A model generated the notes under the pieces. The model had not been told where the DNA came from, made no database searches, and saw only the letters and a list, made by a program, of their open reading frames with translations. From assembly GCA_028724525.1 (NCBI GenBank), contig JAQYCV010000005.1, forward strand, positions 1-64,000: a DNA stretch of 64,000 nt. The letters run 5' to 3'. Both the position numbers and the translations under genes were made by a program. Source of the DNA: Clostridiales bacterium. GTDB taxonomy: Bacteria > Bacillota > Clostridia > Saccharofermentanales > DTU023. Shown here in pieces: positions 35,365-55,459 of this stretch; positions within the stretch are counted from its first letter, which is position 1; each line of letters begins with the position of its first letter.

Positions 35365-35514
35365 TAGGGTCTTGGTCGAGCTCCTAGCTGAGATGGTAAA
35401 TAGATGGGTTTTCTATATAATAGAGGGCGGGCTGAGCAAAAGTCGAGGGCCGCCTGGCCTAGCCCCTCTATTTTTCATGATGATTATATTAGATTTGGTC
35501 CTATAGGAATTCAT

Positions 35515-36708
35515 ATGGATTTTCAATTTAGCTTTAACCATAAACTTAAGCGGATCCTCCGCGCCGTTACCCTTGTCCTGCTTTGCTTGAGCCTCCTGAT
35601 CCCACTTGTCGCCTGCGGACCGAAGACTGTCATCCGGCCCCTGGACTATAGCCGACCCAGCGAAGAGCCAGGAGAAAGCCAGACGGAGGCGACCTCTAAA
35701 ATCAAGGATGAGGCCAAAAAGTCAGAGGCTAAGAGCAAAAAGACTGAGGAAACCACCTATGACCTGTCCAAGGAATTTAATCCCGGCAACCTGCAGGCTT
35801 TATCAGGCGGCGGCTTTAAGAATTTTGCAGGCGCCGAAAATGGTCCCGGTGTCGCGGGCCTGGCGACTGCAGTCAATCAGTTTCTCCAGGAAAAAGGCCT
35901 GGCCGGGGCAGGGATCTCCATTGCCTACCAGGACCTCACGACCAACGAGGTTTATACCCTCAATGCCGATGCCCGTTACCAGTCAGCTTCTGTCATTAAA
36001 GTGGCCGTCGCCATGGTGGTAGGCCAACTCATGGACCAAGGGCATTTCCCAGCGGATATGCAAATTGTCTACCTCCCCTCGAAATGGTTCTCCGCAGATA
36101 ATATGGACCCCGCCCAGGAGGGCAAGCTGGTGTCCATGCAAGGCCTAGTGGATTCTGCCTTGCTCTATTCTGATAATGCCGCAACCTCCGCTATCTTTGC
36201 CTACTTTGACCGCCATGGCTGCCTGCTCCACAACTTTTTGGATGCCAGGACGGGCACCCACTATGCCGGCGATGTCACCATGTCCGCCCGTGAGGGTCTG
36301 GGCCTCATCACCCAACTCTACTATGACAGCGAATTCCCCTCTTATAAAAATATTTTGACGACCATGACCTCCTCCACCTGGAATGAATTTCTGACCAAGA
36401 ATATCCCGGTGGCTGTCTCTTCTAAATACGGCAACCTGGCCGGCTTGAACCACGAAATTGGTCTGGTCTGGTCAGACCGCCCCTTTGCCTACTCGGTCTT
36501 CACCCAAAACGTAGGGGCCTACGATGTCCTGCCCGCCTTGGGTAGCCTGCTCTACCAATACAACACCGGCAGTCTGGCTCCCGCCCAGCCTTCCGTAGCC
36601 CCTCCTGGCCAAGCCGGTCAACCACCTGCGATTCCCAGCCAACCTGGCCAGGCGCCTGGAGTCCCCGGCCAAACTGGAGAGACTTCGCCCCCACCCTTGG
36701 CCCCCTAG
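35515..36708 (+). CDS. Secreted serine hydrolase (class A beta-lactamase-like), lipoprotein with proline-rich C-terminus
   Basis: Lipobox LVAC, SVIKVAVAM (SxxK), SDN motif; C-terminus GETSPPPLAP. Confidence 0.8.
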   Translation: MDFQFSFNHKLKRILRAVTLVLLCLSLLIPLVACGPKTVIRPLDYSRPSEEPGESQTEATSKIKDEAKKSEAKSKKTEETTYDLSKEFNPGNLQALSGGGFKNFAGAENGPGVAGLATAVNQFLQEKGLAGAGISIAYQDLTTNEVYTLNADARYQSASVIKVAVAMVVGQLMDQGHFPADMQIVYLPSKWFSADNMDPAQEGKLVSMQGLVDSALLYSDNAATSAIFAYFDRHGCLLHNFLDARTGTHYAGDVTMSAREGLGLITQLYYDSEFPSYKNILTTMTSSTWNEFLTKNIPVAVSSKYGNLAGLNHEIGLVWSDRPFAYSVFTQNVGAYDVLPALGSLLYQYNTGSLAPAQPSVAPPGQAGQPPAIPSQPGQAPGVPGQTGETSPPPLAP

Positions 36709-36850
36709 CCCCCAGCTTCTGGCTCTTTCAGCAACTACACCATTTTATGGACGTGATCGTATCTCGGTCCTTCTGCCGACCGCCTGCCCGACCAATTTCC
36801 TTCAGACCCCTTAGGCTAGACCTCTTTATTTCGGATTTCTCAGATTTCAG

Positions 36851-37035
36851 ACATATTTGCAAGTAATGGGTGGGTTCCAGCGGTCAAAGCACCCATTAGC
36901 TGCAGATTTGCCCTCGTAACCATCCACTTCTTGCAAATTCGCTCAGGGAGACCACCCATTAGCTGTAATAATGCCGGAGAATCCGAAAAACCGAAGTAGC
37001 ATAGCCCTCTGACCACCCATTACTTGCAAATTTGT
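36851..37035. repeat. Cluster of five approx. 25 bp intergenic repeats (one inverted)
   Basis: Consensus GACCACCCATTAsyTGCAAATTTGC; copies near 36851(-), 36885, 36918, 36950, 37011. Confidence 0.75.
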
Positions 37036-37286
37036 AGGTCCATGAACAGGCCCGCAGTGGGTTCAATAACTTAGTAGAATGTTAGTCTGAATTCACACTG
37101 GATTTTCCTGTAAGACTAAATTCCGCTTCCCACCCTTTAGTGTGGAACTTACTTTTTTACTTTAGCTTGTGAAATCATAGGAAACAGCCGTTACTCCAAT
37201 CTGCCCAGAGCTCTGTTAAAGTTAAAGAGCTAGATAGCTTGTAAAGCAAGTCTAGTTAAAGAAGCAAACAAACTGGAGGGTTTAAT

Positions 37287-37844
37287 ATGGCAAAGAAAAA
37301 GATTTTAGCGATTGTGGGTTCCTTACGGGAAGGATCTTGGAATAGGCAGTTGGCAGAGGCGGCTGGGCAATACTTAGGCGACAAAGCTGATTTTGAAATC
37401 CTCGATTACGCAGATATTCCTTACATGAATGAAGACTTGGAGGCGGATCCCCCGGCCTCTATCCAAAGAGTACGCGACAAAGTGCAGGCCGCGGATGGGC
37501 TCTGGTTTTTCACGCCGGAATACAACCACTCCTATCCTGGCCTCTTAAAAAATCTCATCGACTGGCTCTCCAGACCCCTCAATGACGGTAACCGGGCGGT
37601 CATTATTGGCAAGCCTGCTGCCATCTCTGGCGCAAGTATGGGCGGGGGAGGGACAGTTGTTGCCCAAGACCTCCTGGTTATGCTCCTGTCTATGCTTAAT
37701 TTAAAGATAATGAACCAGCCCCGGCTGACCATAGCTCGTGTGCAAGAACAAGCGGAAGATGGCAAACTAAAACTAGCAGACAGCCAAGCTTATCTGGAAA
37801 AGCAGGCAGATGCCTATCTTAAGTTTTTAGACCAAATCGCCTAA
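37287..37844 (+). CDS. NADPH-dependent FMN reductase family protein
   Basis: IVGSLREGSWNRQLAEAA, FFTPEYNHSYPGLLKNLIDWLSRP. Confidence 0.92.
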   Translation: MAKKKILAIVGSLREGSWNRQLAEAAGQYLGDKADFEILDYADIPYMNEDLEADPPASIQRVRDKVQAADGLWFFTPEYNHSYPGLLKNLIDWLSRPLNDGNRAVIIGKPAAISGASMGGGGTVVAQDLLVMLLSMLNLKIMNQPRLTIARVQEQAEDGKLKLADSQAYLEKQADAYLKFLDQIA

Positions 37845-37883
37845 TAAAGGAAGCACAACTTTAACCTAGTTTTTGCTTATTTA

Positions 37884-37915
37884 TCCTCCGGCTAACCGGG
37901 GGATTACTTTTTCCT
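37884..37915 (+). terminator. Rho-independent terminator
   Basis: TCCTCCGG-ctaa-CCGGGGGA followed by TTACTTTTT. Confidence 0.7.
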
Positions 37916-38033
37916 TATCCTGGAATCTTAGACTTAAAAGCGTGGATGTGGCGGCAAAATTGCCCCTGCAGCCTATAACTTCACCGGCTTTAAAGAATGA
38001 ATCGGCCGGAGTGCCAAGATAAGGAGAATGATC

Positions 38034-39122
38034 ATGAGAAAAAACCTGACCCAACTGCTGGCTGTACTTTTAGTAGCCCTCACTTTCCTGTCGGGTGGTG
38101 CCGTCATGGCTAAGGATGCTGGTCCCGACCAGAAGGCGGATACACAATTGCGTTTCCATGAAGATGGTAGCTTCAAGATTATGCAAATGTCCGACTTCCA
38201 AGATTTTGTGAATGCAGAAAAGACTGAAGCAAATCCTCGCAGCCTGGAACTTATGGAGAAAGCTATTGCCCAAGAAAAGCCTGACCTGGTGGTGATGACG
38301 GGTGACCAAATTGGCGGAAATATGGACGCTGCTCAACTGCAAGACTACATTGCGCAAATGGTTGCTCCCTTAGAGGCTGCGCAAGTGCCTTGGCTAGTTA
38401 CTTATGGTAACCACGATGAAGACGCCACCGATGCGCTCGCAGAAGGCTGGAATAAGATTCGTCAGCTGGACTACTACATGAGCTTTGCCCACAACATCAA
38501 CCAAGCAAGCATGAGTGGAGCTGAAGCGATCGATGAAAATGGCAATACCATTGCAGTGGGTGATATGTATGTTTTGATCTACGACCAAAAAGGTGAAAAG
38601 CCTCTCTACAATGTATGGGCCTTAGACTCCAACCGCTATGCAGACCAGGGTGGCTATGACTTTATCCGCCACGATCAGGTTGCCTGGTACTATGAAACTT
38701 CCAAAAACTTGGAAGATAAATATGGTCTCCTCAACTCCCTCATGTTTTTCCACATCCCCCTGCCAGAATGGGCCGAGATGGCGCACGATGCGCTTCGCTA
38801 CGAGGTAGCTGGTCATAAGTTTGAAAATGAATGCCCTTCCGATACCAACAGCGGACTGTTTGCAGCTATCTCTGAGCGCAAGGATGTACGTGGAGTTTTT
38901 GTCGGCCACGACCATGTTAACGATTATGTAGGTAACTATCGTGGTATTTTCTTAGGCTATGATGCTAATGTGGGCTTCCAAACCTATGGCTTGGGCGGTG
39001 ATGAGAATAACGCGATGCGTGGTGTAAGAGTCTTTGAGCTACAAGCTGATGATCTGGCCAATTTTACTACCCGCATGGTCTATGCCTCTGATCTAGGCAT
39101 TGATGTAAGTCCTGAGAAATAA
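38034..39122 (+). CDS. Secreted metallophosphoesterase
   Basis: Signal peptide, MQMSDFQD, VMTGDQIGGN, YGNHDE, GHDHVNDY. Confidence 0.9.
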   Translation: MRKNLTQLLAVLLVALTFLSGGAVMAKDAGPDQKADTQLRFHEDGSFKIMQMSDFQDFVNAEKTEANPRSLELMEKAIAQEKPDLVVMTGDQIGGNMDAAQLQDYIAQMVAPLEAAQVPWLVTYGNHDEDATDALAEGWNKIRQLDYYMSFAHNINQASMSGAEAIDENGNTIAVGDMYVLIYDQKGEKPLYNVWALDSNRYADQGGYDFIRHDQVAWYYETSKNLEDKYGLLNSLMFFHIPLPEWAEMAHDALRYEVAGHKFENECPSDTNSGLFAAISERKDVRGVFVGHDHVNDYVGNYRGIFLGYDANVGFQTYGLGGDENNAMRGVRVFELQADDLANFTTRMVYASDLGIDVSPEK

Positions 39123-39180
39123 GGCAAAAAAGAAAGGGGCTCCACTCGGATAGAGAAGCCTCCGCTCCAATGAAATAATA

Positions 39181-39224
39181 GGGTGTCTTCTGCGCACATG
39201 AGTGCCAGGGGCACCCTCTTTTAT
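39181..39224. terminator. Putative terminator between convergent genes
   Basis: GGGTG...CACCCTCTTTTATT. Confidence 0.5.
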
Positions 39225-40642
39225 TGGGAAGATTCTGTAGTGTCTACCTGGTGGTAAAGGTGGCGAAGGTTTTCCGGTAGCCAGTGCTGGGTCCGATAGT
39301 AAAACCAGACGCAGGCGAAGGTAATCACCCAAGAGACGGGGTAGGACCAATGGACCAGATTAATGGAGGCGCCGAAGTCCGCCAGACGTGGAATTTCCTG
39401 GAAAAAATGGGCGATAGGGTAGTTCCAAAGGGTACGGATGCCCACCATGCAAAAGATAGAGACCAGCATGGGGTAGAGGGATTGACCAGCTCCCCGAATG
39501 ACTCCAGACAGGACCTGGGCACTGGTAAAAATCCAGTGGAAGGGGGCATAAATTAAGATTTTGCCATAGCCATATTCAATGACACTGGGGTCCTGAGAGA
39601 AGAGGCCCATGAGGGGGCGGCCAAAGATTAGCAGGATAATACTCATGACCACGGAGAAGCCTACACCCAGGAAGGTCGTTGTTCTGGCCCCTTGCTTGAG
39701 CCGGTCCACCTTCTTGGCTCCGATATTTTGCCCGGTAAAGGTGGTCGACGCCATCATGAAGGAGTTGAGGCCCACCATCATAAAGCCGTCATAGCGGTTG
39801 GCTGCGGAAATGCCGGCGATCGCTTCATGGCCAAAACTATTGATGCGGGACTGGATCAAGACGTTAGAGAAAGAGATTAAGGCCGATTGGATGCCAGCTG
39901 GCAGGCCAATGCTGACAATTTCCTTTAATTCCTCCTTATAGACGCGGACCTGGTGCAGGTCTAGCCGGTGGAGGCCCTCGGTATTCATGAGATTGACAGT
40001 CAGAAGGAGGGAAGTCAGGCATTGGGCGATGAAGGTGGCCCAGGCAGCGCCTGCCGCTCGCATATTGAGGGGACCAACAAAGATAAGGTCTAGGACAATA
40101 TTGGTAATGGTCGAGATGATCAGATAGACCAAGGGGCTGCGGGAATCTCCTACCGCCCGCAGGATCCCTGTCCCCATGTTGTAGATTAAGAGGGGGATGG
40201 AGCCTAGAAAGTAAATGCGGGTATAGACCAAGGCCTCTTGGAAAATCTCGGGGGGTGTCCCCATGCGGTCCAGCACAAGGGGAGCAGCGAACCAGGCAAA
40301 GACAGTCAAGAAGAGGCCGGACAAGAGGGCCAGGGCATAGGTGGTATGAACAGCCCGGCTGGTTTTAGCGCTATCTTTGGCTCCAAAGGCTTGGGCCACA
40401 ACCACTGAGACCCCTGTGGCTAAGCCCATGAAAAGGCCCAACATCATGAAGATCAAAGAGGCCGTGGCGCCTATAGCGGCCATGGACAGGGAATCAGACA
40501 GATTGCCCACAATTAAAAGGTCTACTGTATTGTAGGCTTGTTGTAGCAAGGCCGTTAAGATTAAGGGAACGACGAAGTAAAGAATCTGCTTCCAGATAAT
40601 ACCCTGAGTTAAGTCTAAATTATGCATTTCGTGATTTTTCAT
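39221..40642 (-). CDS. MATE family efflux transporter
   Basis: VPLILTALLQQAYNTVDLLIVGNLSDSLSMAAIGAT; likely start MKNHEMHNLDLTQG rather than the long ORF start. Confidence 0.92.
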   Translation of the reverse strand: MKNHEMHNLDLTQGIIWKQILYFVVPLILTALLQQAYNTVDLLIVGNLSDSLSMAAIGATASLIFMMLGLFMGLATGVSVVVAQAFGAKDSAKTSRAVHTTYALALLSGLFLTVFAWFAAPLVLDRMGTPPEIFQEALVYTRIYFLGSIPLLIYNMGTGILRAVGDSRSPLVYLIISTITNIVLDLIFVGPLNMRAAGAAWATFIAQCLTSLLLTVNLMNTEGLHRLDLHQVRVYKEELKEIVSIGLPAGIQSALISFSNVLIQSRINSFGHEAIAGISAANRYDGFMMVGLNSFMMASTTFTGQNIGAKKVDRLKQGARTTTFLGVGFSVVMSIILLIFGRPLMGLFSQDPSVIEYGYGKILIYAPFHWIFTSAQVLSGVIRGAGQSLYPMLVSIFCMVGIRTLWNYPIAHFFQEIPRLADFGASINLVHWSYPVSWVITFACVWFYYRTQHWLPENLRHLYHQVDTTESSQ

Positions 40643-40763
40643 AAACTCCATGATAGCACAGGCGGGGAAAAGCCTTGTGCTATAATGATGTATATAGATT
40701 TGCGTATGGCCAGTGTCGGCTAGGGATTTCGATTGTGTCTTTACCAAGTCATAAGGAGGCTTC

Positions 40764-41429
40764 ATGAATTTCAAGCAGCTATGTACGGACTTGTCCAAAT
40801 ATGCCAACAAGCAGAAGGCTACTGAGATGGCTCATCTCATGGGCAATACCTACGCCTTTAAGGGCTTGGACTCCACAGCCCGAGCCAAAGTCATGGAGGA
40901 CCAGCTGGCCTCAGATAAGGAGCCGGAAAAGCTGGACTGGGAATTTGTCGAATGCTGCTGGGATCAAAATATTCGGGAATTTCAATATTTTGCCTTACAA
41001 TACTTGTCTGCCCGGCGAGATCTTTTGCAAAAGCAAGATTTAACCAAGTTAAAGAAATTGATTGTGGATAAGCCAGGCTGGGATACGAATAATATCTTGC
41101 ATCGGCTGGTCAATCTCTTGACTGCCCTCCACCCTGACCTGGGCGCCAAGATTCTTGCCTGGTCACAGAGTGATGACCCTTGGTTAAAACGTGCGGCCAT
41201 CCTCCACCAAATGGACCGGGGAATTTACGCCGATGAAGAGCTTCTGGCTCAAATTTGGCAGAATTGCTTGGGGGACCCTCACGATTTTGTCCAGGCTGCC
41301 CTAGTTGACAGCTTAAAAGAGCTCCATGAAAATAAAGCAGACTTTGTTGAAGCCTTTTTAAACCAGCATGAGACTGATCTCTCATCCTCTATCCGTCAGG
41401 CCTTGTGCCCCGGAGGTTGTCATGAATAA
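40764..41429 (+). CDS. DNA alkylation repair (AlkD-like) HEAT-repeat protein
   Basis: WEFVECCWDQNIREFQYFALQYL, DPWLKRAAILHQM pattern typical of the AlkD family. Confidence 0.7.
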   Translation: MNFKQLCTDLSKYANKQKATEMAHLMGNTYAFKGLDSTARAKVMEDQLASDKEPEKLDWEFVECCWDQNIREFQYFALQYLSARRDLLQKQDLTKLKKLIVDKPGWDTNNILHRLVNLLTALHPDLGAKILAWSQSDDPWLKRAAILHQMDRGIYADEELLAQIWQNCLGDPHDFVQAALVDSLKELHENKADFVEAFLNQHETDLSSSIRQALCPGGCHE

Positions 41430-42135
41430 AGAAGCGCCTAATAGCCTGGTCTGGGCCCCTGCCAGCCAAAAAATTGCCTGGGCATCCGGGGCAGTCATGT
41501 TAATTTTGGCCAGCCTGGCCATGTATTTTGGCCATCACCAATTACTAACCTTCTGGGTATACACCCTCCCTCTAGTCATGGCGGCCTTTGCCTTTGGCAT
41601 GCTGGGCATGATCTCCAACCATTTTATCCAGACCAAAAGGCTCCTGGCCCTGCCTGACCTGGCTTATCCTGTCCGGGGCTTACAGATAATGGCTATCATT
41701 TATATCTATATCTTCGTCTCGATCAGCGGCATCTACTTTGCCTCCCTTCTGCAGACGGAGGGCTTTTGGACCGACATGTTCAACAATTGGATCAACTATT
41801 TGCTCCTGCTCATCAGCCTGACGATTAGCGCGAGCGGGGGAGGGCAGGTCCTCCTCACTAAGCAGGAGGAGGGTTTGCTTTACCGGGATACCGTCTCCAA
41901 ATCCAAGCTTTCTCGTCAAGATATTTTCTTCTCCTTTTACGGCTCCTGGCGGGATGGTTTCATTATTGGCTGGAAATTATTCCCCTATGAGAACATGGAG
42001 ACCATTGAAGAGGATAAATATGCCGTCACTGTTCGGGGAATAGAAAACGGCCAGCGCTTTGCCCTGGTGATGTATACGCCCCGGATCCAAAAAAAGGCCC
42101 ACCAGCTCCTTCTGCCTCGCTTAAAACCTTACTAG
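41422..42135 (+). CDS. Hypothetical membrane protein
   Basis: ATG 41422 overlaps the upstream stop; four predicted TMs and a soluble C-terminus (YcxB-like pattern not confirmed). Confidence 0.6.
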   Translation: MNKEAPNSLVWAPASQKIAWASGAVMLILASLAMYFGHHQLLTFWVYTLPLVMAAFAFGMLGMISNHFIQTKRLLALPDLAYPVRGLQIMAIIYIYIFVSISGIYFASLLQTEGFWTDMFNNWINYLLLLISLTISASGGGQVLLTKQEEGLLYRDTVSKSKLSRQDIFFSFYGSWRDGFIIGWKLFPYENMETIEEDKYAVTVRGIENGQRFALVMYTPRIQKKAHQLLLPRLKPY

Positions 42136-42260
42136 ATCCTCCTCATTTCTTGGCCATATTGACATAGATTTAAGCTTTGCTAGAATAAAAATGTTAATCT
42201 TGCCGAATATTAATGCGCTAGGCAGGCTAGGGCCAGGTCTTGGCCCGGAAAGAGGTAGAG

Positions 42261-43295
42261 ATGAACTATTTAACGCTAGCCATTCCAGCTTATCAGGCCG
42301 AATTTACCATGGGGACCTGCCTGGATAGCCTCATCACAGCAGGGATCGAGGGTCTCGAAGTCTTAGTTGTGAATGATGGTTCCAATCCCCAAATTTCTCA
42401 GACAGTCGAAGGCTATGTTGCCAAATACCCAGACCACATCCGCCTCTTAAACAAGGAATACGGAGGCCTGGGCTCTGCTCTTAATCTTGCCCTGCGCGAA
42501 GCGACCTGCCCCTGGTTTCGAATCCTAGACGGAGATGACCGCCTAGACCCTCAGGGCTTGGCCAAACTCATGGAGGTCCTACGGGACCTAGAAGAGGAAA
42601 ATCCCAAGCCCGAGCTTGTTGTTGCGGATTATTATTACGAAATTCCCCGTAAGGGAGGGACAAAGTATCTGGAGCGCGCCAGCTTTGCCAATGTTTTTCC
42701 GGAAGTGGGGATCAATTCCTGGTCCCGCCTCAAAAACTTTGCCATCGACCAAATCTTGGGCAAGCAATCCCTAGTTTACCGCCTGGATCTCTTAAGAAAA
42801 ATCAAACTCCGCCTGCCTGACCAGCTGGCCTATGTGGATGAGATTTTCTCCTATGAACCCCTGCCCCATGTCCGCCGGATTTACTATCTGGATGAACCTG
42901 TCTATATTTTCCCTGTTGGCCGGCCCAATCAAGCGTCTAACATGAAGGTCATGGAGCGCCATCTCAAAGACCTCCTGTCGGTGGCCCTAGAGATGTTCCG
43001 CCGGGTGCGTTTGGACTCGGTCAGGCCCCAGCGCCTCCAGCAATATATGTACCGGCACATGGCTAGGGTGATCGCCGTTTGCCTCATGCTGTCCTGTGAT
43101 GAAGAACAGGGTAATGTGGCTTCTCTCAAGACCATGGACCTCATCTGGTCGGAATTTGCTAAGATCAATGCCCCAGCCGCCCGGGCTCTGCAAAAAAAGC
43201 CCATGCTGAACTCTAAGCGCATTTTGAAAGCGGCCAAGTCATATGTCGAACAAGATGTATACAACCTCATCGGCAAGGTCTTTATCATCGATTAA
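42261..43295 (+). CDS. Family 2 glycosyltransferase
   Basis: LTLAIPAYQAEFTMGTCLDSLI...VLVVNDGS, RILDGDDRLD. Confidence 0.9.
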   Translation: MNYLTLAIPAYQAEFTMGTCLDSLITAGIEGLEVLVVNDGSNPQISQTVEGYVAKYPDHIRLLNKEYGGLGSALNLALREATCPWFRILDGDDRLDPQGLAKLMEVLRDLEEENPKPELVVADYYYEIPRKGGTKYLERASFANVFPEVGINSWSRLKNFAIDQILGKQSLVYRLDLLRKIKLRLPDQLAYVDEIFSYEPLPHVRRIYYLDEPVYIFPVGRPNQASNMKVMERHLKDLLSVALEMFRRVRLDSVRPQRLQQYMYRHMARVIAVCLMLSCDEEQGNVASLKTMDLIWSEFAKINAPAARALQKKPMLNSKRILKAAKSYVEQDVYNLIGKVFIID

Positions 43296-43394
43296 TTTCA
43301 GGGACTTCCGACACAGAAATTCATTTTTCTGTCTCATTGTTCCCATGACCTCCTGCTATGCTTAAAGCATAAATTTAGGGAAGGGGTCAGCTTT

Positions 43395-44477
43395 ATGAAG
43401 AAAAGTATTTATGTGATCACAGGTGCCTCCGGCCACCTCGGCAACGTAGTGGTCAAAAAGCTTTTAGACCGCGGGGCCAATGTGCGGGTTTTGATGGTTG
43501 AAGATGAGATTCCCCCTAGCTTAGAGGGCTTGGACCTGCAAATTGTCCGGGGAAACCTTAGCTCACGTGCTGATTTGGAGAGACTTTTCCAGGGCCTAAA
43601 CGGTCTGGATATCTATGTCCTCCACATGGCCAGTATGATCACCATTGACTCACAGGTTAGCCCCCTCGTGGAAAAAGTTAATGTGACCGGCACCGAGTTA
43701 CTCCTGGATTTAGCGCTAGAGCATAAGGCCAAACGCTTCCTTTACTGTTCGTCTGTACACGCGATTCCAGAAAAGAAATATAATGCCCCGATCAGTGAGG
43801 TTACGGCTTTTGACCCGGCCTGGGTTGAAGGGGCCTACGCCAAAACCAAGGCCATGGCCTCTCAAGCGGTTTTAGATGCCAGTAAAAAGGGCTTAGATGT
43901 CGTCCTGGTTCACCCTTCAGGTATTATTGGACCCTACGATTACGAGCACAATAACTACTTAAACCAAACTGTCCGCGATTTCCTCAGAGGCAAGCTCACA
44001 ACCCTAGTCCAGGGTGGCTACGACTTTGTAGATGTTCGAGACGTGGCAGATGGTCTCCTGGCTGCTCTCTTTCAGGGGGATAGTGGGGAGTCTTATATTT
44101 TATCTGGCCATTACCTCAGCATTGAAGACTTAATTAAGCTGGCTGCTAAGGCTTCAGGCAGGACACCTATCCGCAGAGTCTTGCGCCTGGGTTTGGTCAA
44201 GCTCTTTGTCCCCCTGGTGGAGTGGTGGGGCAAACTGCGCAAACGCCGTCCTCTGTATACGGCCTATTCCCTTTACACCCTAAACGCCAATGCTAACTTT
44301 TCCCATGCCAAGGCTAGCGCTAGACTTGGCTATCACCCACGTCCGCTCAAGGAAACAGTGGAGGATACGGTCCAGTTTATTCGTGACCAAGCGAGCCAGG
44401 GAAGTTTGGGCGAAAAGCTCAAGATGAAATTAGCGGATATTCACATGGTCCCACATCGCCAAAGGCCGCTTCCATAA
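43395..44477 (+). CDS. NAD-dependent epimerase/dehydratase (extended SDR)
   Basis: VITGASGHLGNVVVKKLLDRG, YAKTKAMASQAV. Confidence 0.9.
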   Translation: MKKSIYVITGASGHLGNVVVKKLLDRGANVRVLMVEDEIPPSLEGLDLQIVRGNLSSRADLERLFQGLNGLDIYVLHMASMITIDSQVSPLVEKVNVTGTELLLDLALEHKAKRFLYCSSVHAIPEKKYNAPISEVTAFDPAWVEGAYAKTKAMASQAVLDASKKGLDVVLVHPSGIIGPYDYEHNNYLNQTVRDFLRGKLTTLVQGGYDFVDVRDVADGLLAALFQGDSGESYILSGHYLSIEDLIKLAAKASGRTPIRRVLRLGLVKLFVPLVEWWGKLRKRRPLYTAYSLYTLNANANFSHAKASARLGYHPRPLKETVEDTVQFIRDQASQGSLGEKLKMKLADIHMVPHRQRPLP

Positions 44478-44516
44478 TTGCCTGCCCCTATCTGTTCCCA
44501 AAATTTTCATGAAAAT

Positions 44517-44550
44517 AAAACCCGGATTCTCATCAGGAACCCGGGTTTTT
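44517..44550. terminator. Rho-independent terminator
   Basis: AAAACCCGG...CCGGGTTTTT. Confidence 0.8.
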
Positions 44551-44607
44551 CATGTTTCGCTTCCTGCCTATAAAAAGAGCGTCAAGGCAGCTTGAGAGAG
44601 AGGGAAC

Positions 44608-46671: not shown

Positions 46672-46855
46672 TATCTAATAATGCAAGCATACCATTTTTT
46701 ACCGGCGGACTCTATGCTGGCAATCAGTTATAATAGTAGGACACACTTAAGCCCAAATGCCCCTTCTTGGGCTTGGAAAGGCAAAGAGCAAGGCTCTTGA
46801 TCCGTGGGGCTAACCCTTCTGGCTGGATTTTTGCAGGCCCTTGCTCCTGACACTT

Positions 46856-48265
46856 ATGACAACTAATCAAACGCTAAAGGTACAGGCTCATTTTTTCTGG
46901 CGCCGGGCCTTGTTGATTTTGACAATCCTGGCCCTCTGCTTGGGCCAAAGCTTCCTTCCAGCCCCCCGGGTCTTGGCCCAGGAGAAAGAGACTGAGACCA
47001 AGGCTCCCCGGGTCAATCTGGCGGCCCAAGATCCGGCCCGCAACCGGAGCATTGCCGAGCTCACGCCAGAGGAAAAGTTGGCCGATTACGCCGCCTTTTG
47101 GGATATTATCTATGATGCCTACCCCATGCTGGGTTACCTGCGCCGCCAGGGCGTTGACCCGGAGGCCCTCAAGGATCAGTATGAGCAGGGCGTCCTCGGT
47201 CTGTCGACCCGGGCAGACTGGCTGGCCTATTTCCAAAGGATTATCACGGACTTAACCATGGGTGGCAAGGATGTGGGCCACCTCTCGGCTGTTGGCCTGA
47301 GTAATTATTTGTTGAATGCGGACTACCAATCCTATTGCTATTTTTTGGCGGAATATCCAGATGACCCTTGGCTAGATATGATGGGAGAAGTTTTTGAAAA
47401 TCCTCATGTCTTGGGCTTTTACAATCTTGTGGAAGAAGAACGTGAGCCTGGCGTAGAACCCCATATCGATATTCCCGATAATCTCTATACAGAATTCCAT
47501 CCAGAAGCAGACTGGTCTTATCTGTATATCAATTCCTTCCTCAACCAAAATATGGATGACCAGGATATCTTGGCGGACTTCTTTATGGAGACAGAAGGGC
47601 AGGGGATCGGCAATGTGATCATTGATCTCCGGGACAACGAGGGAGGCTATAACGACTATTGGCTACTCAATATTGTGGCCCCTAATATTAAGAAAGCCCT
47701 CCAGGTCGAAAACTTTGGCCTCTACAAGGAATCGCCCTGGACCCAGGCCTGCCTAGATTATTATGCCAGCTCTACTTATGAGGAAGACCTGGTCGAACTC
47801 AAAGAGGCTGGCCCCCTGCCTACCTTGATTTTCAGCTGGAACCGCCGGCCAGACCCCCTGCCGCGGATGCCCAAGCTGGTCAAGGAAGACATCGACGACC
47901 TGGAAGAGGCTTTTCAGGAAACCATCCGGATTGCCCCTTCTACGGATCAGCCCCTCTACACGGGCAAGATTTGGATCCTCTCTGGTCCCTTATCCTACTC
48001 TGCTTCGGAATACTTCATTTCTTTTGCCAAGCGGACCGGTTTTGCCAAAATTGTGGGTGAGGAATCCGGGGGTGATGGCTCTTGCGTGGTTACTCTTTAT
48101 AATGCCCTGCCGGAATCTGGCCTTATCATTCGCTACAATGCCCTCTATGGCCTGAATCCTGACGGTAGCCCCAATGAAGACCAGGCCACCCAGCCAGACT
48201 TTCCCATTGCAGAGGGCCAAGATGCCCTCAACTTAGCTGTTGAACTGATTAGTAAAGGAGACTAA
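46856..48265 (+). CDS. Secreted S41-type peptidase-like protein
   Basis: Signal peptide; NVIIDLRDNEGGYNDYW; GPLSYSASEYFISFAKRTGFAKIVGEESGGDG. Confidence 0.75.
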   Translation: MTTNQTLKVQAHFFWRRALLILTILALCLGQSFLPAPRVLAQEKETETKAPRVNLAAQDPARNRSIAELTPEEKLADYAAFWDIIYDAYPMLGYLRRQGVDPEALKDQYEQGVLGLSTRADWLAYFQRIITDLTMGGKDVGHLSAVGLSNYLLNADYQSYCYFLAEYPDDPWLDMMGEVFENPHVLGFYNLVEEEREPGVEPHIDIPDNLYTEFHPEADWSYLYINSFLNQNMDDQDILADFFMETEGQGIGNVIIDLRDNEGGYNDYWLLNIVAPNIKKALQVENFGLYKESPWTQACLDYYASSTYEEDLVELKEAGPLPTLIFSWNRRPDPLPRMPKLVKEDIDDLEEAFQETIRIAPSTDQPLYTGKIWILSGPLSYSASEYFISFAKRTGFAKIVGEESGGDGSCVVTLYNALPESGLIIRYNALYGLNPDGSPNEDQATQPDFPIAEGQDALNLAVELISKGD

Positions 48266-48269
48266 AGAG

Positions 48270-48836
48270 ATGAAAGACGTCTTATCTGCTCAACAAAATC
48301 GTTTCTCAACCCGCAAATTCCAAGACAAGGTCCTATCAAACTTCGAGTTAGAGACCCTGGAAACCGCTGCCCTCAATGCGCCTACAGCCATGAATCGGCA
48401 AGAGTTACGTTTCGCTTTTATTCAAAGGCAAGACATCCTCAGCCGGCTGGATGAAAAAGTTCGCCAGGAGATGGAAGCCAATAACCCGGAGGCCTACCGT
48501 AGCTTCCTGCAAAGAATGGCCGAGCGAGGCAGTGACAGTGTCTTTTATGGGGCTCCCCTGGTCATCGTGATTACCGGTAGCCCGGACTCTTATTCCCCGG
48601 TCAATGCCGGCATCGCCGTGCAAAATCTCGCCCTGGCGGCTGAAGCCCTGGGTCTGGGCTCCTGTATCATCGGCATGATCCGTGACTGTTTCAAAGCTCA
48701 GGACCCCGATAACTGCTTAGACTTGATTGGGGCAGAGAAGGGCAATATTTTCCATATTGCGATTGCTATCGGCTATAAGGCTGAAGATAAGACCCCCCAT
48801 AGCTACGACTATGACCACATCATCCATTTAGATTAA
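48270..48836 (+). CDS. Nitroreductase family protein
   Basis: RFSTRKFQDKVLSNFELETLETAALNAPTAMNRQ, AAEALGLGSCIIGM. Confidence 0.9.
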   Translation: MKDVLSAQQNRFSTRKFQDKVLSNFELETLETAALNAPTAMNRQELRFAFIQRQDILSRLDEKVRQEMEANNPEAYRSFLQRMAERGSDSVFYGAPLVIVITGSPDSYSPVNAGIAVQNLALAAEALGLGSCIIGMIRDCFKAQDPDNCLDLIGAEKGNIFHIAIAIGYKAEDKTPHSYDYDHIIHLD

Positions 48837-48855
48837 TTAGATTAAGGAGTGCTTT

Positions 48856-50040
48856 ATGACTTTTAATTTTGACCAAGTAATCGACCGCCACCAGACCAAT
48901 TGCATCAAATGGGACCGCTTGCCTGAAGTGTTTGGCCCGGATGTCCCCCAAGATACCTTGGCCCTCTGGATTGCCGACATGGATTTTCCTGTAGCCCCGC
49001 CCATTGTGGAGGCTATGCGCCACCGCCTGGACCATCCCGTCTTTGGCTACACCTTCCCCGGACCAGAATTTTTCCAAACCTGTGTTGACTATATTGGCCG
49101 CCACTACCATTGGCAGGTCCAAAGTGACTGGCTGACCTTTTGCCCGGGTATTGTTCCAGCCCTTAATATGGCCGTGATGGCCTTTACCAAACCCGGGGAC
49201 AAGGTGATTTCCCTTACGCCGGTCTATGGCCCCTTTAAGGCGGCGGCAGAATCCCATGGCCGAGCCTTTATCTCCTGTGACTTGGACCTGGACGACCAGC
49301 TCCATGCCAGCATTGACTTTGACAAGTTGGAAAGCCTGATCGATGATTCCTGCAAGCTCCTCATGCTCTGCAGCCCCCATAATCCCCTAGGCAGAGTGTG
49401 GACTCGAGACGAGCTCAGCCGTCTGGGCCAGATTGCCCTCAAGCATAACCTCTTTATTGTCTCGGATGAAATCCATGCAGACTTCGTCTACCCGGGTCAG
49501 CAGCACACCCCCCTGGCCAGCCTGAGCCCCGACTTGGCTGCCCGGTCTATCACCTGCTACGCTCCTTCCAAGACCTTTAATATTGCAGGCCTCGCGGCCT
49601 CGGTTTTGGTTATTCCCAACCCTCAAGTGAAGAAGACCTTTGACGACTTTAAAAGTAAGATGCACTACTCGGGCAACCTCTTTGCCTACACGGCCATGCA
49701 GGCTGCCTGGTCCTCTTGCGACGACTGGCTGGCCCAGCTCATCACTTACTTGGAGGGGAACCGGGACTTCCTCTACCAGGAGATCAAAGACCGCCTGCCC
49801 CAGGTCCAGACGACCAAGCCTGAGGGCACCTATCTCTTATGGATGGATTTTAAGGAATTTGCTCGGACCCGTGGCCTAGATTCTGACCAGGCCCTGTGCG
49901 ATTACTTGCTGCAAAAAGCCAGTCTGGCCCTCAACCAGGGGTCCAGCTATGGCCTCTCTGGCCAGGGCTTTATGCGGCTGAACTTTGCCTGCCCCCGGTC
50001 CCAACTGGCCGAAGCGGTAGACCGACTGGCCAAACTATAG
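48856..50040 (+). CDS. patB: MalY/PatB family aminotransferase (cystathionine beta-lyase-like)
   Basis: LALWIADMDFPVAPPIVEAMRHRLDHPVFGYT, LCSPHNPLGRVW, SDEIHADFVYPG, APSKTFNIAGL. Confidence 0.94.
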   Translation: MTFNFDQVIDRHQTNCIKWDRLPEVFGPDVPQDTLALWIADMDFPVAPPIVEAMRHRLDHPVFGYTFPGPEFFQTCVDYIGRHYHWQVQSDWLTFCPGIVPALNMAVMAFTKPGDKVISLTPVYGPFKAAAESHGRAFISCDLDLDDQLHASIDFDKLESLIDDSCKLLMLCSPHNPLGRVWTRDELSRLGQIALKHNLFIVSDEIHADFVYPGQQHTPLASLSPDLAARSITCYAPSKTFNIAGLAASVLVIPNPQVKKTFDDFKSKMHYSGNLFAYTAMQAAWSSCDDWLAQLITYLEGNRDFLYQEIKDRLPQVQTTKPEGTYLLWMDFKEFARTRGLDSDQALCDYLLQKASLALNQGSSYGLSGQGFMRLNFACPRSQLAEAVDRLAKL

Positions 50041-50183
50041 GCCCCGTCGGTCAGCTAATTTGATCTGTTAGCTTCTGGGGGCCGGTTTGCGCCCCCTAGT
50101 AGCTTGTGTCACAATAGAAAGAGGCTTGGCAAACCTACACCTGGAGCCTGTCTAGGCTCCTATCTCTCCGAAAGGAGGCGCTT

Positions 50184-51482
50184 ATGCTTAAGCAAAAATA
50201 CAAGCTATACATCATCGCTGGCCTGAGCTTTTTGCTCTGCTTGACCTTGTCTGCCTGTCTGCAGGGGGACAAGACGGGCCAGCTGAAACACATGCAGGAG
50301 CAAAACCAAGCTCTGCAAACAGAAATCGCTTCTTTGCAAGCCGCTTTAAAGGACGCTCAGGCGAGCGCCCAAGAGCCAGGTCTCAGCCCTGAGACTCCCA
50401 GTGCAGAACCCTCAAGCTCAAAGACACCTACCCCGAGCTCGGACCGGCCTAGTGCCCGCCCCAGTGCGGAAGACGAATTTGTCTACCGGGGTAACCTGGA
50501 GGTCAATGGCAAACGTGTGGCCGACATGAGCCGAGAAGAAATTGAAGCCCTGCCCACCATGGGCGCGCCGGTTACGGATGTGAAGACGGGCAAAACGACC
50601 ATGATCTACCCTCCCGAGGGCATCAAAAATCTTTATGAGCAATTGGCCTATGTAGACCGCCTGACCCGTTATATGACCTGGGGCCCAGATGTACCGGAAG
50701 ATAAGCCGGTGGACTTGGGCGCCTATGATATCAGCCACAAGACCCTCCTGGTCCGCCATGATCCTGAATCTGACCTGGACCAGCTTTATGAATTAGAGGG
50801 GAAAGACCAGGAGGCCCTGGACCAGTGGCTGGATGCCAATCTCGGCCAAGCCCTGGCCGAAAGCAGACCAGACTTTTCTTACGATAGCCAGATCTTTACT
50901 CCCCAGGGTGACCATATCTACTTTAGCCAGGCCGACTTCCTGGAAAGCCAGACCGAGCCCTATGCCTACATGCGGAAGGGACAGGACCAGTTTTTCCAGA
51001 TCGACCTGAAAAGCCCTGCCGCTACGGCCTTTAAAGATCTCCTATCTCCCGCCCGAGCCAAGCTGATTTATGACGAGGAGAAGGAAGTCAGTCAGACTTC
51101 AGAAGACAAACCTGTCCATTCCCTCCAGCTTGCGACTAGCAGAGAAGCTGACCCCGAAAAAGTGAGCTTCCGCGTGACCAACCCCCAAAAGGAAGGCTGG
51201 GCCTTCCGCAACTTCTACAAGCTCTTCTATTATGAGGGCGAGTCCTGGTTCCAAATGGAGCCGACCCAGGTTGGGGAGTGCTATGAAGCACGGGAGGACC
51301 TGGTCTTACCCGCTGAGACTAGAGAGATCACGATCAACTATGGGTCCTGCTATGGCGACCTGGCCCCGGGCTATTACCGGCTTGAAGTCGGTATGGAGAC
51401 CCAGCCGGAAAAGACCTCTGGCACTGTGCCTACCCTGCGGGCAAATCGAGAAAATTATGCAATTTATTTTGTCATTAGATAA
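50184..51482 (+). CDS. Hypothetical lipoprotein with Ser/Pro-rich linker and C-terminal Ig-like domain
   Basis: Lipobox LSAC; SPETPSAEPSSSKTPTPSSDRPSARPS linker; C-terminal VSFRVTNPQKEGW...LAPGYYRLEV Ig-like pattern. Confidence 0.65.
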   Translation: MLKQKYKLYIIAGLSFLLCLTLSACLQGDKTGQLKHMQEQNQALQTEIASLQAALKDAQASAQEPGLSPETPSAEPSSSKTPTPSSDRPSARPSAEDEFVYRGNLEVNGKRVADMSREEIEALPTMGAPVTDVKTGKTTMIYPPEGIKNLYEQLAYVDRLTRYMTWGPDVPEDKPVDLGAYDISHKTLLVRHDPESDLDQLYELEGKDQEALDQWLDANLGQALAESRPDFSYDSQIFTPQGDHIYFSQADFLESQTEPYAYMRKGQDQFFQIDLKSPAATAFKDLLSPARAKLIYDEEKEVSQTSEDKPVHSLQLATSREADPEKVSFRVTNPQKEGWAFRNFYKLFYYEGESWFQMEPTQVGECYEAREDLVLPAETREITINYGSCYGDLAPGYYRLEVGMETQPEKTSGTVPTLRANRENYAIYFVIR

Positions 51483-51487
51483 TTAAT

Positions 51488-51565
51488 GGCAGGTTAGACC
51501 TGAGGAGATCCCCCTCAGAGACGTAAGGCTCAACCTGCCCCCCTGCCGCTGGTCGGCTGGGGGGC
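51488..51565 (+). promoter_or_regulatory. Structured 5' leader upstream of mgtE with overlapping alternative stems
   Basis: GGCAGGTT/AACCTGCC enclosing CTGAGG/CCTCAG, then GCCCCCC-T-GCCG-ctggt-CGGC-T-GGGGGGC. Confidence 0.5.
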
Positions 51566-51592
51566 AATAGTTTGAGACCAAAGGAGGCAAAG

Positions 51593-52966
51593 ATGGCCCT
51601 GCAAGAAGATGTTAAGACTAGACTCTGGGACCAAGTGGAGGCGCTTTTGGCCAAGCGCGATTATGCTGGCCTGCGCCAACTACTCTTACCTGAGGAGGCT
51701 GTCGATATAGCGGACCTGGCGATAGACTTGCACGGTCTGGACCTCGCGACCTTCTTTCGCTTGCTAACCAAGGACCAGGCCGCAGATGTCTTTGTCTACC
51801 TGTCTAGTGACCAGCAGGAAGAGCTCATCAAGCTGTACTCAGACCAGGAATTATCCGAGATCCTGGCTGGTCTCTATAATGACGACCTGGTAGAAATTCT
51901 GGATGAATTGCCGGCCCAAGTGGCCAAGCGGGTTCTGAAGCAAACGGACTCTAGCAGGCGGGACCTGGTCAACCGCCTCCTCCAATACCCGGAGGATTCT
52001 GCGGGCTCGATCATGACGACGGAGTACATGAAACTCTCCCAAAATATGACGGTGGCTGAGGCCTTGTATAAACTCCGCCACATCAACCAGCAGATTGAAA
52101 TGATTTATACCTGCTTTGTGACCAATGCCAGCCGGGTTTTGGAAGGCGTCGTTTATGTCGCTGATATTCTCCGGGCACGGGATGATCAGTACTTGTGGGA
52201 AATCATGAACCGTCAGCCCCACTATGTACAGACAACGGATGACCAGGAAGAGGTCGCCCGAGTGATCCGGGAATTCGACCTCCTGGCCCTGCCAGTCGTA
52301 GACGCAGAACACCGTCTTGTGGGTATTGTCACCGTAGACGATGCGGTTGAAGTCTTTGTCGAAGAGGTTAGTGAGGACCATGCCTACATGGCTGCTGTCC
52401 AGCCGGCTGAGACACCTTATCCGGAAACCACAGTTCTGGATAATGCCAGACGGCGAATTCTTTGGCTCCTGCTCCTCATGCTGTCGGGGACTCTCAATGC
52501 GATTATCCTCCGCCGCTATGAGGCTGTCTATCTGGCCCTCCCCATGCTGGTTGCCATGATGCCCCTGCTGACGGCGGCCGGCGGCAATGCCGGTTCCCAG
52601 ACCACCAGTGTGGCGATTGTCGCCTATGCCACGGGTGATATCTCCGGCCATGATTTTGGCCGGGTCCTGTGGAAGGAGTTCCGCATTTCTCTGATTTGCG
52701 GTCTAGCCCTGGCCAGTGTGAATGCGGCTCTCGTCTATGCCCGCAATGATCACAGTTTAACCCTGGCTTTGACCATTTTTATTTCTTTCTTGGCCACTAT
52801 TGTCATGGCCAAGCTTATGGCGGTTACCTTGCTCTATCTGGCCAAGGCCCTCCGCCTAGACCCTGCCATGGTGGTCTCGCCAGTCATTACGACAGTTGTG
52901 GATATTTGTGCCTTGCTCCTCTATTACGGCATAGCGGCTAGGCTCTTCAATATTAGTTTGGTATAG
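51593..52966 (+). CDS. mgtE: Magnesium transporter MgtE
   Basis: MgtE N domain, YPEDSAGSIMTTEY, CBS pair, LLTAAGGNAGSQTTSVAI; SD AAGGAGG before ATG 51593. Confidence 0.95.
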   Translation: MALQEDVKTRLWDQVEALLAKRDYAGLRQLLLPEEAVDIADLAIDLHGLDLATFFRLLTKDQAADVFVYLSSDQQEELIKLYSDQELSEILAGLYNDDLVEILDELPAQVAKRVLKQTDSSRRDLVNRLLQYPEDSAGSIMTTEYMKLSQNMTVAEALYKLRHINQQIEMIYTCFVTNASRVLEGVVYVADILRARDDQYLWEIMNRQPHYVQTTDDQEEVARVIREFDLLALPVVDAEHRLVGIVTVDDAVEVFVEEVSEDHAYMAAVQPAETPYPETTVLDNARRRILWLLLLMLSGTLNAIILRRYEAVYLALPMLVAMMPLLTAAGGNAGSQTTSVAIVAYATGDISGHDFGRVLWKEFRISLICGLALASVNAALVYARNDHSLTLALTIFISFLATIVMAKLMAVTLLYLAKALRLDPAMVVSPVITTVVDICALLLYYGIAARLFNISLV

Positions 52967-52975
52967 GAGGCGGAT

Positions 52976-54016
52976 ATGACAACTATTAAAGATACAAGAG
53001 CCCAAGTCACAGGCCCAGCTCCGCTCCCGCCCCAAGACCCCCTGGCCTATCCGGAGGACTCTGCTGGCCTCCTCATGAGCAACAATTTTGTCCGCTTGCG
53101 GCCCGATATGACCATAGGGGAAGCCTTCCAAACCCTGCGGTCCACCCCAAAACCCTTAGAAGTGATTTACTCCTGCTTTGTTACCGACAGTAACGATAAG
53201 CTTTTAGGGGTCATTTCCGTGCGTGATATCTTCGCGGCCCGCGATGACCAGCTGGTTTCAGACGTCATGGAAGACGCGGTGGTTTCTGTCCTGGCGGAAG
53301 ATGACCAGGAAGATGTGGCCGTCGCCTTTGACCGCTATGACTTCCTTGCCCTGCCGGTCGTAGACCAGGCGGGGACCTTACTGGGTGTCATTACCGTAGA
53401 TGATGCCATGGATATCATGCACGAAGAGGCCCGGGAAGACTTAACCAAGATGGCTGCCGTTACCCCGGCTGATCAGCCCTATCTGGAAACCTCCCCCTGG
53501 CAACACGCTAAATCGCGGGTCTTCTGGCTTCTCCTCCTAACCCTGTCCGGCTTAATTAATGAGGCCATCTTGAGCCACTACGAGCATGCCTTCTTAGCTC
53601 TCCCGGTCTTAGTGTCCTTCATCCCCATGCTCACGGATACAGGGGGTAATGCTGGTGCCCAGTCTTCTGCGGTGGTTATCCGGTCCCTGGCCATGGGCGA
53701 AATAAGCTTCAAGGACTTTTTCTGGGTTGTCTGGAAAGAGATTCGTATTGGTTTTGTAGTCGGTATCACTATGGCTGTGGTCAACCTAGCCCGGGTCTAC
53801 TTCATTGAAAAAGAGAGCTTTATCCTGTCGCTCACTGTCTCCTTGACCCTGGTCTGTGTGGCCATGGTCGCCAAGGCCATGGGGGCTGCCATGCCAATTT
53901 TAGCCGAGAAACTCAAGTTGGACCCTGCCGTCATGGCCGGACCTGTCATCGCAACCGTGGCCGATGGTATTACGATTATGATTTACTTTACCCTAGCTAG
54001 CCTCCTTGTCTTGTAG
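52976..54016 (+). CDS. MgtE paralogue lacking the N domain (CBS + transmembrane)
   Basis: Starts just before YPEDSAGLLM; CBS pair and MLTDTGGNAGAQSSAVVI TM signature retained. Confidence 0.9.
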   Translation: MTTIKDTRAQVTGPAPLPPQDPLAYPEDSAGLLMSNNFVRLRPDMTIGEAFQTLRSTPKPLEVIYSCFVTDSNDKLLGVISVRDIFAARDDQLVSDVMEDAVVSVLAEDDQEDVAVAFDRYDFLALPVVDQAGTLLGVITVDDAMDIMHEEAREDLTKMAAVTPADQPYLETSPWQHAKSRVFWLLLLTLSGLINEAILSHYEHAFLALPVLVSFIPMLTDTGGNAGAQSSAVVIRSLAMGEISFKDFFWVVWKEIRIGFVVGITMAVVNLARVYFIEKESFILSLTVSLTLVCVAMVAKAMGAAMPILAEKLKLDPAVMAGPVIATVADGITIMIYFTLASLLVL

Positions 54017-54078
54017 ACTGGCCTCTGGTATTTGACAGCAGATGGCCTAAAATTTACAATTCAATAGCAAATGTATGA

Positions 54079-54154
54079 GGTCCCGTAGCTCAGTGGATAG
54101 AGCAACGGTTTCCTAAACCGTGTGTCGGAGGTTCGACTCCTCTCGGGATCACCA
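54079..54154 (+). tRNA. tRNA-Arg(CCT)
   Basis: GGTCCCGTAGCTCAGTGGATAGAGCAACGGTTTCCTAAACCGTGTGTCGGAGGTTCGACTCCTCTCGGGATCACCA; cloverleaf, anticodon CCT, encoded CCA. Confidence 0.96.
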
Positions 54155-54157
54155 GTT

Positions 54158-54195
54158 CAAAGCCCTGGAGCGATCATTTCAGGGCTTTGCCTTAT
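54158..54195 (+). terminator. Probable terminator downstream of tRNA-Arg
   Basis: CAAAGCCCTG-gagcgatcattt-CAGGGCTTTG then CCTTATT. Confidence 0.65.
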
Positions 54196-54220
54196 TAAAG
54201 CAAGTTTGGAGCTTTTCCCT

Positions 54221-55459
54221 ATGTCATTTCTCAGAAGTATGAAACCGCACTCCGCCGGAGAATGGCTACTCATAGGCCTCCTCGCAGTCATGGTGGTAGC
54301 GACAGCGGTGCTCTTCATTACCCAGCCTTTTTTGCGTGACCAGGATGAGGTCCGCCTCCAAGCGATTGAAAACAGTAGCCTGTCATCTGAGGCGACAGAG
54401 GCCCTAGCTATGGCGACCACAGGCGCAACCAGTCCAACAACTCCTGACAGGGCTGGGCAAAATCTCCAGGCCTTGACTGACCGCATGAAGCTCATGGCTA
54501 GTTACAACGGCGATTTTGTCCAAAAGCAGGTCAATCCCATCCTGCGGAACTTACGGTCAGGACAAGCAGAAGAGTCGTTGCCAGAAGAAACCCTGGCCCT
54601 ACCCGGTGGTTTAGCTGTGCCGGACACCAATAGCCAGACCTGGATCGGACAAACTCCGCCTGCCGAAACACAGGCGTCTGAAACCCAGCCGGTTTATACC
54701 GGACCTACGAGCCCGCCGCCCCTCACGCCCCAGGCTAGCCAGGCTGGCCAAGTGACAGGCGAAACCAGTCCGCCCCCTTTGGATCCCAATAGGCAAACCC
54801 AGCCCCAGCAAGTAGGCGAGACCAGCCCTCCGCCTCTTCCTCCGGGTGCCAGCAGTCCGGCCGCCAGCCCGGCTCCTAATCCAGCCCCCGGGCCTAACAC
54901 CCTTCCTGGTCAAACTAGCCCTCCGCCGGGCGCCCCCTCTCCCCAGCAGACCTCACCTGTGCCCAAGCCAGGACAGGCGGGTTCAACTGTCCTGCCCGGG
55001 CCGGAAGTCATTGCCCAGGTTCAGGGGAGCGTTGTCCAATTGATTAATGGGGCCAGGGCCCAAGCAGGCCTCGGCCAGCTATCTAATCCCGGGATCATGC
55101 AGACGATTTCCAGCCAAAGAGCGGGGGAACTCTCTGTTCACTACCACGCTGCTCCCAATACCCACTACCGGCCAGACGGGTCCAATGCCCTTGTCTATAT
55201 TGCCAATACCTATGGCGGCCAATATGCTATGGGGGAATGTGTAGCCTGGTTTGATAATGTTGGCCGCTTGTCGGCACAATTGATCTTTGACGCCTTCATG
55301 AATTCTCCCCCCCACCGCGCTATCATTATGAATGCAGGGGTGGGTAGCATCGGAGTTGGTGTCTACTGTGTGCCCGGACCTGTTCCGGACAATAACACGG
55401 GCGAGCCCAACGATTCCCTGGTGGGCCGCTTCTTTGTCAGCCTGAACTTCGGCAACTAA
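54221..55459 (+). CDS. Secreted/membrane-anchored CAP (SCP/PR1) domain protein with proline-rich repeat linker
   Basis: N-terminal TM; SPPPL repeats; C-terminal VQLINGARAQAGLGQL...MGECVAWF...FMNSPPHRAIIMN CAP motifs. Confidence 0.85.
   Translation: MSFLRSMKPHSAGEWLLIGLLAVMVVATAVLFITQPFLRDQDEVRLQAIENSSLSSEATEALAMATTGATSPTTPDRAGQNLQALTDRMKLMASYNGDFVQKQVNPILRNLRSGQAEESLPEETLALPGGLAVPDTNSQTWIGQTPPAETQASETQPVYTGPTSPPPLTPQASQAGQVTGETSPPPLDPNRQTQPQQVGETSPPPLPPGASSPAASPAPNPAPGPNTLPGQTSPPPGAPSPQQTSPVPKPGQAGSTVLPGPEVIAQVQGSVVQLINGARAQAGLGQLSNPGIMQTISSQRAGELSVHYHAAPNTHYRPDGSNALVYIANTYGGQYAMGECVAWFDNVGRLSAQLIFDAFMNSPPHRAIIMNAGVGSIGVGVYCVPGPVPDNNTGEPNDSLVGRFFVSLNFGN

Follow-up and report, generated by a model that had tools for sequence, protein, structure and literature searches.

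An ordered proline-rich tag on unrelated exported wall-facing proteins of a Gram-positive genus, and its possible reading by a common partner

Extracellular disordered tails are common on bacterial wall enzymes and their working is incompletely understood. According to PMC12539705, the disordered tail of Bacillus subtilis PBP1 is thought to sense gaps in the wall, and Ser/Thr-rich disordered regions of streptococcal membrane-associated proteins, PBP1a included, are reported to be O-glycosylated (Rahman et al., 2025, as cited in PMC12539705). Here we describe a short ordered peptide, with the core TSPPP, that is carried by a serine hydrolase and a CAP-domain protein encoded some 18 kb apart in a stretch of 64,000 nucleotides from a Clostridiales bacterium (C5:1-64000, referred to below as the window). 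The genome to which the window belongs (G000) consists of 47 contigs and 1,761,757 bases (1.76 Mb), and it was compared with two genomes of the same genus (G001 and G002), both of which were read in part (0.32 Mb in the case of G001). The host is a Gram-positive genus within a little-known group of anaerobic bacteria.

The closest described systems resemble this tag in some respects only. The O-glycosylated streptococcal regions, as far as they are described in PMC12539705, are similar in their extracytoplasmic disordered location and in being borne by membrane-associated envelope proteins such as PBP1a, whereas the tag segments are short, Pro-rich, fixed in order and different between species, and their glycosylation is a candidate only. 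The tails of class A PBPs (PBP1 of B. subtilis and C. difficile; PMC12539705, PMC13270295) are likewise disordered C-terminal tails on membrane-anchored wall enzymes, and PBP1a is tagged in G001 and G002; however, the accessible parts of these papers describe the tails as long and gap-sensing, and describe no short ordered motif across unrelated wall enzymes. The class A PBP tail was also rejected as the class to which the tag belongs, PBP1a being untagged in G000, where all five carriers are other proteins. Eukaryotic proline-rich short linear motifs, such as the SH3 PxxP, WW PPLP and TSG101 PTAP ligands, are likewise short disordered peptides with Pro that recur in many unrelated proteins, where a common domain reads them. 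The present tag, in contrast, is bacterial, extracytoplasmic and without a known reader domain.

The serine hydrolase in the window (35404..36708, plus strand) belongs to the Beta-lactamase2 family (Pfam, 1.2e-23) and is a putative lipoprotein; a lipobox, LVAC, was read directly from the sequence, with its Cys codon near 35614, and ATG 35515 is an alternative start. Its last 10 residues are the tag copy GETSPPPLAP (36676..36705, plus strand), with the stop codon (36706-36708) directly after. The CAP-domain protein (54221..55459, plus strand; Pfam CAP, 4e-8) has a membrane segment at the N terminus and a CAP domain at the C terminus, with a Pro-rich linker between them. Its linker holds four copies, all on the plus strand: GPTSPPPLTP (54701..54730), GETSPPPLDP (54758..54787) and GETSPPPLPP (54815..54844), the second and third each 19 residues past the previous copy, and a variant, GQTSPPPGAP (54908..54937). 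All the positions and peptides given for both proteins in a preliminary description of the window proved right when the sequence was re-read. The open frame of the CAP-domain protein runs from GTG 54122, which lies inside a tRNA-Arg (CCT) at 54079-54154. Because of this overlap the start is probably ATG 54221, and an automatic annotation from 54122 would be wrong.

The preliminary description was right to place the motif in these two proteins, but across G000 it is found in five exported proteins. Genes were called using a simple in-frame hexamer score, a crude step which gave 1463 proteins covering 91% of bases, and proteins were classed as exported on hydropathy only (one or two early membrane segments), a crude rule that gave 200 exported and 1263 other proteins. 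The three further exported carriers are a propeller protein (C5:152248), in which a Pro-rich linker joins a membrane segment to a beta-propeller at the C terminus, a VanW protein (C10:74614) and an L,D-transpeptidase (C36:40835). TSPPP occurs once in the hydrolase, four times in the CAP-domain protein, twice in the propeller protein, once in VanW, at the C terminus, and twice in the tail of the L,D-transpeptidase. The domain architectures of these five proteins are unrelated, so that the same short motif is present in non-homologous proteins. Among the 7-mers of the exported proteins of G000, ETSPPPL is the one shared most widely, with six copies in five of the 200 proteins against 0.001 expected from composition, and it is limited to predicted exported proteins (5/200 compared with 0/1263 of the others; Fisher p = 4.6e-5). 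Outside the exported class TSPPP occurs once, in a predicted transcription regulator (C21:7888), and there it is without the preceding E.

We permuted the residues in the Pro-rich segments of 77 membrane-containing G000 proteins in 2000 trials. TSPPPL was found in at most one protein per trial, in comparison with the five observed, and no 6-mer was common to more than three proteins. Because the shuffles never reproduce the sharing, the carriers have a residue order in common that goes beyond composition. Most of the 77 proteins, including large adhesin-like exported ones, do not have the tag and, together with the shuffles, this rules out generic Pro-rich low complexity. It had also been claimed that codons differ between the copies and that the similarity is kept at the level of the protein. 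This is borne out: motif copies from different genes have a nucleotide identity of 0.711, where codon usage alone would give 0.696, and the synonymous sites of the tags are randomised in G000, G002 and G001 alike. Recent DNA copying, whether by duplication or gene conversion, is excluded because synonymous identity matches the codon-usage expectation in all three genomes.

In G002 the core of the tag is PTSPP[PA] and it is present in approximately 10 proteins. The orthologue of each of the five G000 carriers is among these, with the tag often in the same position. The hydrolase ends in AKPTSPPPVGP and VanW in ARPTSPPPIGG; the L,D-transpeptidase has two copies, the last of them 10 residues from the end, the CAP-domain protein has six TSPPP/TAPPP copies and the propeller protein has four. 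PBP1a ends in ERPTSPPPLDADDDRGFNP. A polysaccharide deacetylase has seven copies, and the other G002 carriers are an SGNH protein, a small exported protein and a fragment that has a membrane segment at its C terminus. TSPPP was not found in any protein-length frame of G001 by pattern search and in the 0.32 Mb read. The G001 tag is instead YAPTAP, which is found at matching places in all five orthologues (the hydrolase ends in YAPTAPSAPEEP) and in nine exported proteins altogether, the further carriers being PBP1a, an OatA-like acyltransferase, a second CAP protein and a small protein with a C-terminal membrane segment. A search of G001 for YAPTA gave 17 places, compared with two for a backward control, and all but one (in a Xaa-Pro aminopeptidase) are in exported proteins. 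There is no YAPTA in G000. The OatA-like acyltransferase and the SGNH part are one fused protein in G001 (L234:1789-4143) and two overlapping frames in G002 (L178:692-3017), where the tags are on the SGNH part only.

Given approximately 9-10 tagged proteins among an assumed 200 exported ones (a number taken from G000), the chance that five of five orthologues are tagged is approximately 1e-7. Identity between species is 38-56% for the carriers and 76-79% for PBP1a, and the tails align poorly outside the tag. The same tail position in PBP1a reads YAPTAP in G001, PTSPPPL in G002 and IRVITP, which is not a tag, in G000. Because the same orthologues carry PTSPPP in G002 and YAPTAP in G001, the tag differs between species in concert across non-homologous proteins. 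The preliminary description had proposed a protein-level tag for exported proteins, serving in wall binding, glycosylation or protein interaction, and this was to be abandoned if no other exported protein had the motif and relatives did not conserve it; with five exported carriers in G000 and tagged orthologues in G001 and G002, the data favour a tag on both counts.

The species differ in the sequence of the tag but are roughly alike in its copy number and position. Across species the hydrolase and VanW have one copy, 8-12 residues from the C terminus, and the tail of the L,D-transpeptidase has two, 18, 20 and 18 residues apart in the three genomes. Spacings in the CAP arrays are mostly 17-19 residues, and the median spacing between tags is 18 residues (33 intervals). 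In a low-quality model of the propeller protein (mean predicted local distance difference test score (pLDDT) 54, three-sequence alignment) the linker at residues 161-391, which holds both tags, has a pLDDT below 50; the fold is assigned as a beta-propeller only, the model giving no finer assignment. The remaining tags are in C-terminal tails or Pro-rich linkers outside Pfam domains. The tags thus sit in disordered tails and linkers of membrane-anchored wall-facing proteins, the disorder being predicted from this model for the propeller protein and putative for the others.

Taken together, the data suggest that the tag is read outside the cell membrane and that whatever reads it has changed along with it. 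We favour the reading that the tag is an extracytoplasmic short linear motif on membrane-anchored wall-facing proteins which has a common reader and is probably a docking signal, and we give this reading a probability of approximately 50%. From a peptide that is shared, specific in its order, exported-only, independent of DNA copying, conserved in position and concerted in its identity within each species, we infer one common wall-side partner. In this scheme membrane-anchored proteins, most of them peptidoglycan-remodelling, carry the tag singly or in arrays spaced by approximately 18 residues, and the tag is fixed within a species as ETSPPPL in G000, PTSPPP in G002 and YAPTAP in G001. The partner would bind or read the tag of all carriers and, because it would be a single partner, all carriers would have to follow a shift in its specificity. 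The likeliest effect would be docking, which would hold or gather the wall enzymes either at the wall or with one another. We prefer docking on two grounds: it is the whole ordered peptide that differs between species, and the Thr is replaced in three of the 18 G001 copies (YAPAPP, YAPPA). Tyr-Ala-Pro is kept in the copies without Thr, which fits recognition of peptide shape better than a Thr modification site, although the copies were collected via a YAP search and the invariance of YAP is partly by construction.

A more specific proposal, which we make tentatively and judge to fall slightly short of probable, is that the peptide is a species-specific identity tag on wall-remodelling enzymes, recognised by one receptor or one modifying enzyme in the extracytoplasmic space, and that tag and reader have co-evolved (TSPPP-type versus YAPTAP-type). 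In all three genomes VanW has as its neighbour in the operon an NlpC/P60 protein that contains SH3b domains, and this protein is a possible reader, as a lead only. An ordered tag that is common to unrelated wall enzymes and concerted within species is what would be expected of a tag-and-reader pair, and the question is testable by cross-species comparison. If true, the tag would serve as a simple address by which peptidoglycan enzymes are grouped on the outer side of the membrane. Nothing on this motif was found in the literature accessible to search, several likely key papers being outside it.

A number of points weigh against a docking signal with a common reader. No reader or binding partner of the tag was identified in this analysis, and in G000 both PBP1a and the two close OatA-like proteins are without the tag. 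The exported class depends on the hydropathy rule and on home-made gene calls. The discrete tag is found in three species only, all of them represented by fragmented draft genomes, two of which are shown to be metagenome-assembled. Additionally, other genera share tail composition and have no discrete motif, and a role based on composition could explain this.

The main alternative, a strong one but in our view less likely than docking, is that the tag is a species-specific O-glycosylation acceptor: a lipid-linked sugar pathway would modify Thr/Ser beside Pro and so shield the tails from proteolysis. The tag resembles mucin-type acceptors in that Pro flanks its Thr (PTSPPP, PTAP). The disordered regions of streptococcal PBP1a, as described in PMC12539705, are a precedent. 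G000 encodes a GT2 enzyme that has membrane segments at its C terminus, a flippase of the GtrA type and a GT-C enzyme of the YfhO family. In this it resembles the CsbB/GtcA/YfhO systems, whose known acceptors, however, are teichoic acids and not proteins (PMC8035078). This GT2, GtrA and YfhO set is only a candidate counterpart of the streptococcal enzymes, and the presence of the GT2 gene near the tagged VanW in all three genomes is a neighbourhood hint only. PMT-type O-mannosylation was rejected, since PF13231 (PMT_2) is absent from G000, G001 and G002 and was found in 10 of 14 control genomes in a search that covered this family and left PF02366 and PF16192 outside. A glycosylation site, moreover, need not fix an ordered motif of 6-7 residues, and in the YAP-based collection from G001 it is the Thr that is replaceable and not Tyr-Ala-Pro.

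Between the GT2 and VanW genes there is, only in G000, a gene for a 3164-aa Pro-rich exported surface protein (C10:64842-74336, mostly L068); in G001 and G002 the interval contains a short PHP-type phosphoesterase gene instead. Two neighbouring large membrane proteins (L060:3096-7326; 718 and 714 aa, with nine predicted membrane segments each) are suspected glycosyltransferases and gave no Pfam match.

A second alternative, which we regard as improbable, dispenses with a reader. Disordered spacers would drift under genome-wide compositional or translational bias, so that the tails within a lineage converge in look. Extracellular disordered tails are described for PBP1 of both B. subtilis and C. 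difficile and, in 20 genomes, the tails of PBP1a and VanW are closer within a genome or genus than between genera, including genera whose tails are of low complexity only. Their similarity within a genome exceeds that of permuted pairs (p ~5e-5, 1- and 2-mers), relatedness being not fully controlled in this comparison. The effect is at the level of the genus, because p is 0.11-0.17 when permutation is confined within genera. A family-wide DNA-pattern search for the tag returned only the genus and scattered chance matches, matches in other reading frames being common noise. No discrete tag was seen in the other genera of the family, where VanW and PBP1a tails are alike within a genus: Y/D-rich in one, TTTT/PAP in another and PTPAPT in a third. 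In two sister-genus genomes, G008 and G014 (L271, L272, L206, L213), both tails are rich in YDYD-type sequence. Drift of this kind is at odds with a residue order common to the carriers beyond composition, with the untagged state of other Pro-rich exported G000 proteins such as the large adhesin-like ones, and with three related species that keep different discrete tags at the same positions.

It is very unlikely that the tag is recognised by an exported proline-directed protease for the trimming or release of wall enzymes: the linker copies do sit between membrane anchor and domain, and Pro-rich linkers are typical protease targets, but cleavage at copies 8-12 residues from the C terminus would set free nothing of use, and cleavage does not call for arrays of as many as seven copies, as in the G002 deacetylase. 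Ribosome stalling by PPP does not fit as a function because the G001 tag, YAPTAP, has no PPP. Finally, anchoring by an LPXTG-type sortase was rejected, as no hydrophobic segment or sorting signal follows the tags that end the hydrolase and VanW. A putative sortase-like protein, read by eye, is encoded in the window at 3132-3893 on the minus strand, and the tags do not look like its substrates.

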